Below are positions 6,458 through 16,241 of a DNA stretch of 37,189 nt, one piece after another. Made by a program: the position numbers and the translations under genes. The stretch lies in the NCBI GenBank assembly GCA_030550115.1, contig JAUQPY010000005.1:1-37189 (forward strand), in the 5' to 3' direction. Source of the stretch: Microcaldota archaeon. GTDB lineage: Archaea; Micrarchaeota; Micrarchaeia; Anstonellales; J096. The notes under the pieces were generated by a model that was not told the origin of the DNA, did not search any database, and saw nothing but the letters and a program-made list of their open reading frames with translations. Each line of letters starts with the position of its first letter. Position 1 is the stretch's first letter.

Positions 6458-6715
6458 GGTTGGGTAGGCGGGGGCTAGGGGTCCCCTATCCGCAAATATC
6501 CCCTTAGCGGGCCACATGGGGAGGTGTGATAGAGCCCTCATGATAGTTGCTGTAGGGCAGATGAGTCGGCACCTCCACAATAACCATCTACACTGAAACG
6601 GGTCAGGCCGAAAGGAGCATCCCTAAGGTGTAGGTGGTTGTTTGTGGAGATTGCTAAGATGATGTCTAAGGTAACAATTCATGAGCAAGCTTTATCGCTC
6701 CCTCCCCTCCCAACC
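6458..6715 (+). ncRNA. Archaeal signal recognition particle (7S) RNA
   Basis: Helix-8 signature gggtcaggccGAAAggagcatccc; closing 5' ggttggg / 3' cccaacc; archaeal Alu-like 5' region; TATA-like ttttttaaaaac about 24 nt upstream. Confidence 0.92.
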
Positions 6716-6731
6716 ATACCAGGTGATAAAT

Positions 6732-7145
6732 ATGATAATATCCGCCGGAATAATCCTAATCAAAGATGGGTCGATACTTTTACTTAGAAACAGAAAAGGG
6801 CATATAGACTTTCCAAAGGGTCATGTTGAGGAGGGAGAATCTATTCTAGAGGCTGCTATTCGAGAGTTTAAAGAGGAAACAGGTCTTAGTGATAAAGATA
6901 TCTACATCATTCCAGGAAAAGAATATGTTATGGAATACCCTGTATTAGAAAAGGGGGAGATTCAGAATAAGAGAGTGATATTATTTTTAGCTAAATATGT
7001 GGGAAAAGATGAAGTAAAGATTTCAAAAGAACATTCAGAGTATAAATGGGCTCCATTGGATGAAAAACTAGAGAAGGATCTGAAATACCGAGAACAGAAG
7101 AATATAATAAAACAGCTTTTAAAAGACATTCAGGAAATAAAGTAA
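6732..7145 (+). CDS. NUDIX hydrolase (Ap4A hydrolase-like)
   Basis: Nudix box GHVEEGESILEAAIREFKEETGL; ORF-track start 6681 lies inside the SRP RNA, so ATG 6732 is preferred. Confidence 0.9.
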   Translation: MIISAGIILIKDGSILLLRNRKGHIDFPKGHVEEGESILEAAIREFKEETGLSDKDIYIIPGKEYVMEYPVLEKGEIQNKRVILFLAKYVGKDEVKISKEHSEYKWAPLDEKLEKDLKYREQKNIIKQLLKDIQEIK

Positions 7146-15100: not shown

Positions 15101-15515
15101 TTCTGTCTCTGAAATATTGATCGTATCCAGGTCCCAATACTAAAAATTCTCTGCGTCCAATCTTCTCTACTCTAATAAATTCTCTGTTCATTAGCTCCAA
15201 GAATTCTTCTTTAGAGAGCTTTCTAGTGGCCTCTGAACGAGGAATCTTCCCATGAACCTTTATTGCCCCAATTATCTTCAATTGCTTATCAGATAATTCC
15301 CTATTCTCATAATACTTGGCAATTCTATCTACATAATTAGGTTTTATCTCCATGATTAGATGATTGTTCTTTACAGTTATCCATAATACAGTATCCTTAT
15401 ACTTCTCATTCAACCTATCTATGATTTCCTGTATATTTCTATCTTGTAGATTATCCAAAGGTATCCCATTAGGTTTTAGAAACAACAATCCTTCAATTAC
15501 TTCATCATCCATCAT
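15087..15515 (-). CDS. scpB: Segregation and condensation protein B
   Basis: EVIEGLLFL...LSDKQLKIIGAIKVHGKIPRSEA; adjacent to scpA. Confidence 0.82.
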   Translation of the reverse strand: MMDDEVIEGLLFLKPNGIPLDNLQDRNIQEIIDRLNEKYKDTVLWITVKNNHLIMEIKPNYVDRIAKYYENRELSDKQLKIIGAIKVHGKIPRSEATRKLSKEEFLELMNREFIRVEKIGRREFLVLGPGYDQYFRDRNAKN

Positions 15516-16143
15516 TCCTCACCCTAACAATCTTAATATCTTCAAAAGGTTTGGATTGATAGAAATCGAGCTTTCCATCGTTACTAAGAATCAAAAGAGA
15601 CAGGAAATTCTCCACTCTATCCCCAGGGATATCTGAGAACATAATCTCATCAGCAATCATATCTAAAAATCTCCTAAGCTTTATTTCAAAATCCTCTCGA
15701 TCTGTAATAAATATATGATCAATTGGTTGTGTATTGATTTGGATTTCAGTATTTACTCTTCTTGTTGAACTGTATCTCTTCATGTATTTTCTTATAATTT
15801 TAATCAGATACTTTAGAGATACGGGGATCTTCCTAGCAGGTCTTTTGAGCTCCCTGATTTCATGAGTGTAATCCATATTATCAGCAATATCTACATTACT
15901 ATATTCTGGAATATTTAGCATTAGAGCTCTATATTTAAGAATTATAGCATAAGCTAATAATAGATCTCCAGTAATCTTAAAATCTACCTGTTCGATTCTT
16001 TCCTTTATCTTCTGAGCTAACAGCTCTAAGTCTAAATCCCACGGATCTAGCCTATTAGTCATTACCAAATCTACTAACACTCTTTTCCAATCCGATCTCT
16101 CTACAATTCTCTCTATATCCATATTGATTATATTTACATTCAT
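15505..16143 (-). CDS. scpA: Segregation and condensation protein A
   Basis: DPWDLDLELLAQKIKERIEQVDFKITGDLLLAYAIILKYRALML kleisin N-terminal motif. Confidence 0.88.
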   Translation of the reverse strand: MNVNIINMDIERIVERSDWKRVLVDLVMTNRLDPWDLDLELLAQKIKERIEQVDFKITGDLLLAYAIILKYRALMLNIPEYSNVDIADNMDYTHEIRELKRPARKIPVSLKYLIKIIRKYMKRYSSTRRVNTEIQINTQPIDHIFITDREDFEIKLRRFLDMIADEIMFSDIPGDRVENFLSLLILSNDGKLDFYQSKPFEDIKIVRVRNDG

Positions 16144-16154
16144 CTATTTTTAAG

Positions 16155-16212
16155 TTTATCAGCCGCTGTCGGTCTCATCATAACTCAGAGGTTGTCTATT
16201 TCATCAACAGCT
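16155..16212 (-). ncRNA. C/D-box guide sRNA
   Basis: Minus strand TTGATGA(C)-aatagacaacct-CTGA(D')-gtt-ATGATGA(C')-gaccgacagcgg-CTGA(D): two 12-nt guides, 3-nt spacer; TATA-like attattaaat about 25 nt upstream. Confidence 0.85.
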
Positions 16213-16241
16213 TTTAATTAGTGTTATATTATTAAATAGTT

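Follow-up and report, generated by a model that had tools for sequence, protein, structure and literature searches.

A conserved archaeal C/D box sRNA with two guides predicted for U2552 and U2504 of 23S rRNA in Micrarchaeota

The window analyzed here is a 37,189-nt stretch (contig JAUQPY010000005.1) from the 0.58-Mb genome of a Micrarchaeota archaeon (G000; GCA_030550115.1). Between scpA and a divergent M42 peptidase gene, neighbors that family matches confirmed as named in the initial annotation, the minus strand of 16212–16155 reads directly as ctgTTGATGA aatagacaacct CTGA gtt ATGATGA gaccgacagcgg CTGA taaa. The features of the locus are as follows.

15505–16143 (−): scpA (PF02616), directly downstream of the sRNA and on the same strand; family match
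16159–16207 (−): core of the C/D box sRNA gene, box C to box D, 49 nt; direct reading, shuffles and model match
16201–16207 (−): box C, TTGATGA; reading and alignment A1
16189–16200 (−): D′ guide, aatagacaacct, N5 predicted to pair with U2555 of the genome's own 23S rRNA (E. coli U2552); rRNA target scoring
16185–16188 (−): box D′, CTGA; reading and alignment A1
16175–16181 (−): box C′, ATGATGA; reading and alignment A1
16163–16174 (−): D guide, gaccgacagcgg, N5 predicted to pair with U2507 of the genome's own 23S rRNA (E. coli U2504); rRNA target scoring
16159–16162 (−): box D, CTGA; reading and alignment A1
16225–16240 (−): TATA-like element; TTTAAA-type element at matching distance in L033 and L035
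16242–17114 (+): M42 peptidase (PF05343), divergent neighbor; family match

The four boxes follow the order C–D′–C′–D of a double-guide C/D RNA, with RUGAUGA for C and C′ and CUGA for D and D′. Boxes D′, C′ and D match the consensus perfectly, while box C deviates by one mismatch at the R position, which is also one base off consensus in two relatives (L033 and L035); its TGATGA is invariant in alignment A1. The layout with two exactly 12-nt spacers, as initially proposed, was borne out by the pattern TGATGA-12-CTGA-gtta-TGATGA-12-CTGA at 16206–16159 (−). Allowing up to two mismatches, a single four-box layout is found in the 37-kb window and none in 100 dinucleotide-preserving shuffles. Across the genome, where sRNAs were sampled by the strict pattern only, that pattern was found at five sites compared to zero for a reversed-pattern control, which also gave zero across 20 relatives. 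Two guides of 12 nt and a core of 49 nt agree with the ranges of archaeal C/D box sRNAs, whose guides span about 10–12 nt and whose entire length is about 50–70 nt (PMC7994747). The mature sRNA probably ends a few nucleotides beyond the core, at about 16155–16212. No clear, consistent terminal stem around boxes C and D was seen in the aligned flanks, where such a stem is weak or absent. The covariance-model check suggested at the outset was answered in part: archaeal C/D models are the top Rfam matches of the locus, but the best of them, RF00095, scored 25.7 bits (E = 0.0008) against a gathering score of 45, and no C/D family matched at the gathering threshold. The locus shares with RF00095 (snoPyro_CD) and the archaeal sR families the four-box layout and size, whereas its guides do not correspond to theirs.

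The TATA-like element TTTAATAA ends 22 nt upstream of TGATGA, close to the initially estimated distance of about 25 nt, and in the two syntenic relatives (L033 and L035) TTTAAA-type elements, read by eye, lie at 20–22 nt. The element is probably the promoter of the sRNA or of a joint sRNA–scpA transcript. Because a second ATG of scpA is conserved in L033, translation of scpA probably starts near 16122 rather than at 16143, which would leave about 37 nt between the sRNA and the scpA start downstream of it on that strand.

Relatives preserve the RNA in two genomic settings. In G002 (L033) and G003 (L035), it occupies the same position beside the M42 peptidase gene with near-identical guides; scpA follows in G002 too, and the G003 contig ends at that point. 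In G004 (L034) and G001 (L036), of the same genus, the sRNA instead lies 5 nt behind a tRNA-Cys gene. The guides of these four copies are identical to those of the window or altered by one base each. Such retention of the guides through a change of setting is what a trans-acting RNA would show, and would not be expected if the RNA were a leader element of scpA. In the window genome, the sRNA is probably transcribed from a promoter of its own or carried on the scpA leader, while in the sister species tRNA 3′ processing probably frees it from a tRNA-Cys precursor. In the tRNA-linked copies, the sRNA immediately follows a tRNA, as in the dicistronic tRNA-Val–sRNA8 of Nanoarchaeum equitans (PMC3491384); sRNA8 differs from them in tRNA and guides, and the window copy is not tRNA-linked.

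To follow the RNA further, a sequence-only model (R1) was built from five copies including that of the window, which the model matches at 16155–16210 (E = 6.6e-20, the window copy being part of the model). R1 matched 96 of 301 genomes of the phylum at E ≤ 0.01, many weaker matches being counted on E value alone. In 29 copies read out, the window's included (28 in one set plus that of G007), D′ is preceded by the guide core ACAAC and D by ACAGCG, with few exceptions. The conservation of the boxes in relatives on which the initial annotation had staked its reading is seen, and both guides are kept as well.

This distribution bears on two readings of the locus that involve no guide function. That the boxes fell together by chance in A+T-rich intergenic DNA has in its favor that they are short and that their position is intergenic, but we consider it extremely improbable: the shuffles and the five-to-zero genomic count speak against it, leading us to reject it, and the spread of R1 matches over the phylum refutes it. 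Slightly less remote, yet still very unlikely, is an L7Ae-bound k-turn element in the scpA leader that controls scpA rather than acting as a guide RNA. Such an element would fit the position of the sRNA, on the scpA strand and shortly before the probable scpA start, whereas conservation extends from the boxes to guides that fit 23S rRNA, and the same RNA stands behind tRNA-Cys in G001 and G004; on the R1 conservation and these tRNA-Cys-linked copies, we rejected it as the explanation. The sRNA may nonetheless have a dual role, as a guide and in leader control of scpA.

The guides were scored against rRNA, with E. coli numbering taken from direct alignment of the genome's own 23S rRNA to E. coli rrlH. 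As the initial annotation anticipated, targets for the guide complements were found in the genome's own rRNA: both guides pair with 23S rRNA across the fifth nucleotide upstream of D or D′, which falls on U2552 and U2504, respectively, for D′ and D. The 12-nt target strings it had predicted do not occur literally in the rRNA, because the duplexes extend over about 10 nt and contain G:U pairs. For the D′ guide, the best site is U2555 (E. coli U2552) in the A-loop with 16.0 points, one mismatch and two G:U pairs. This score is not significant in the one genome, since 59–65% of shuffled guides do as well, and the case for D′ therefore rests on the relatives, in most of which the duplex N2–N11 is free of mismatches. 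The D guide fits best at U2507 (E. coli U2504) in the peptidyl transferase centre with 25.5 points, a score reached by about 3–5% of shuffled guides. The next-best score for D was 18.5 points, and an alternative D site at 16S position 31 was rejected for this genome (18.5 versus 25.5 points). Across 16 genomes, each tested with its own 23S rRNA and with the 16S rRNA of the window organism throughout, the predicted site ranked first among all 23S and 16S sites in 16 of 16 cases for D′ and 14 of 16 for D. Column-permuted guides attained the observed mean score in 0 of 1,000 (D′) and 9 of 1,000 (D) trials, a test that still contains the shared ancestry of the guides.

Whether both guides direct methylation is the point on which a third reading differs, in which only D′ directs methylation, at U2552, and the D guide binds rRNA, acts as a chaperone or guides methylation inefficiently. 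We regard this as unlikely, though well ahead of the two readings above. It draws on the weaker D pairing of many relatives, with an A·C mismatch at N8 and U·U at N1, on two genomes in which a better-scoring site lies elsewhere and the predicted D site comes second, and on the literature searched, where Um2504 was not found under that name, although archaeal surveys may list U2504 among their sites. Against it, the D duplex is the stronger of the two in the window's own genus, with ten contiguous pairs and rank 1, and the D core N2–N7 is retained in most genomes.

In several cases, guide variation follows the target, which supports the predicted sites. The two guide differences between the window copy and that of G002 turn G:U into A–U pairs. 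In G023 (23S L109), the A-loop carries U2555A, and the facing guide base has a matching T for A. In the genus of G007–G009, the rRNA reads GGUUUG; the G007 guide forms a G:U pair there, that of G008, compared with this rRNA of the genus, has a fitting A and that of G009 is mismatched. G074 is a counter-example, keeping an altered guide base though its 23S rRNA has the usual U2555.

A2503 is nearly universal in 23S rRNA. Micrarchaeota read ACAUCGCUGUCGG where E. coli reads ACCUCGAUGUCGG in all sequences showing the region, a variant with C2503 and A2499 in E. coli numbering (2506 and 2502 in the window genome's 23S rRNA, and L002 4006 and 4002). N4 of the D guide is a G, which fits this C. In 23S domain V of G035, G043, G074 and G017 (L053, L115, L120 and L050), about 35–50 nt are inserted adjacent to the guide targets or between them; these insertions may be introns or expansion hairpins.

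The genome encodes the proteins of a C/D host: fibrillarin, a Nop5-type protein and three L7Ae-family proteins, one of which is presumably L7Ae itself. By established C/D biology, boxes C and D would fold into a k-turn and C′ and D′ into a k-loop, which L7Ae would bind, followed by Nop5 and fibrillarin. The two 12-nt guides would pair with 23S rRNA, D′ at A-loop U2552 and D at U2504 of the peptidyl transferase centre, and fibrillarin would methylate the 2′-OH of the nucleotide opposite guide position 5. Um2552 is nearly universal. No RlmE-type gene is evident in the genome, which is 84% complete; its sole FtsJ-family match (21 bits, below the cut-off) lies inside the fibrillarin gene. Among 59 relatives, none had a convincing FtsJ/RlmE-family gene: 13 had FtsJ-family matches just above the cut-off (24–29 bits, best 29), which we take as other methyltransferases of the same fold, while 14 of 14 control genomes were positive. 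Seen beside this gene content, the sRNA suggests that Um2552 may be made by an RNA-guided route in these archaea, where no RlmE is evident.

The boxes, conservation, 23S complementarity and protein genes mark the locus as a real small RNA gene, whose RNA most likely directs fibrillarin to methylate two nucleotides at the catalytic core of the ribosome; expression, processing and methylation are inferred. That the gene encodes a trans-acting archaeal C/D box sRNA with two guides, for Um2552 and Um2504, has a probability of about 0.93 in our estimate. Tentatively, and at somewhat less than even odds, this could extend to much of Micrarchaeota, in which one conserved double-guide sRNA would methylate U2552 and U2504, replacing an RlmE-type enzyme for U2552, while Um2504 would be a mark specific to this lineage and linked to its C2503/A2499 variant.

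Catalogues of C/D guide RNAs cover cultured archaea, among which Nanoarchaeum represents the reduced DPANN genomes. For Micrarchaeota, the literature searches returned no paper on such RNAs. Among archaea, U2552 is already known as a guided position, predicted in five species (Dennis et al., PMC4644070), and the window sRNA and Pyrococcus abyssi sR25 are both C/D sRNAs predicted for it, sR25 at U2669, the equivalent of E. coli U2552 (PMC2584109). An RNA-guided Um2552 without evident RlmE fits these predictions for other archaea (PMC4644070, PMC2584109). N. equitans sR10 resembles the window sRNA as a double guide of a reduced DPANN genome with D′ directed to an A-loop uridine, alignment position U2826, which we equated with E. 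coli U2552 by offset; unlike the window D guide, directed to U2504, that of sR10 is directed to the C2606 equivalent (PMC4644070). The RNA type is well known, and this member is unannotated and conserved over much of the phylum. Less ordinary are U2504 as a site and the wide conservation as a double guide; the analysis gives one site that can be tested. A seven-species survey found only about 17% of predicted sites common between species and shared double guides rare (PMC4644070), which makes an sRNA whose two guides can both be followed across many families unusual.

Other RNA genes and candidates were also observed. L040 (C21:5006–5053) is a C/D sRNA candidate whose D′ N5 falls on 23S G2251 in the P-loop (25.5 points) and whose D guide falls on U2438; similar copies occur in many relatives. 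In L041 (C27:15088–15135), the D′ guide fits 16S C1483 (own numbering) with a score reached by 0.3% of shuffles, and in G001 and G004 an L041-type sRNA lies about 40 nt after an L040-type sRNA. Two further candidates, L038 and L039 (C18 and C20), are matched by similar copies elsewhere in the genus, and no convincing target for their guides was found in rRNA. An SRP RNA gene lies at 6459–6714 (+) of the window (Rfam bacterial large SRP model, 63.7 bits), overlapping the start of a mechanically called ORF at 6681–7145.
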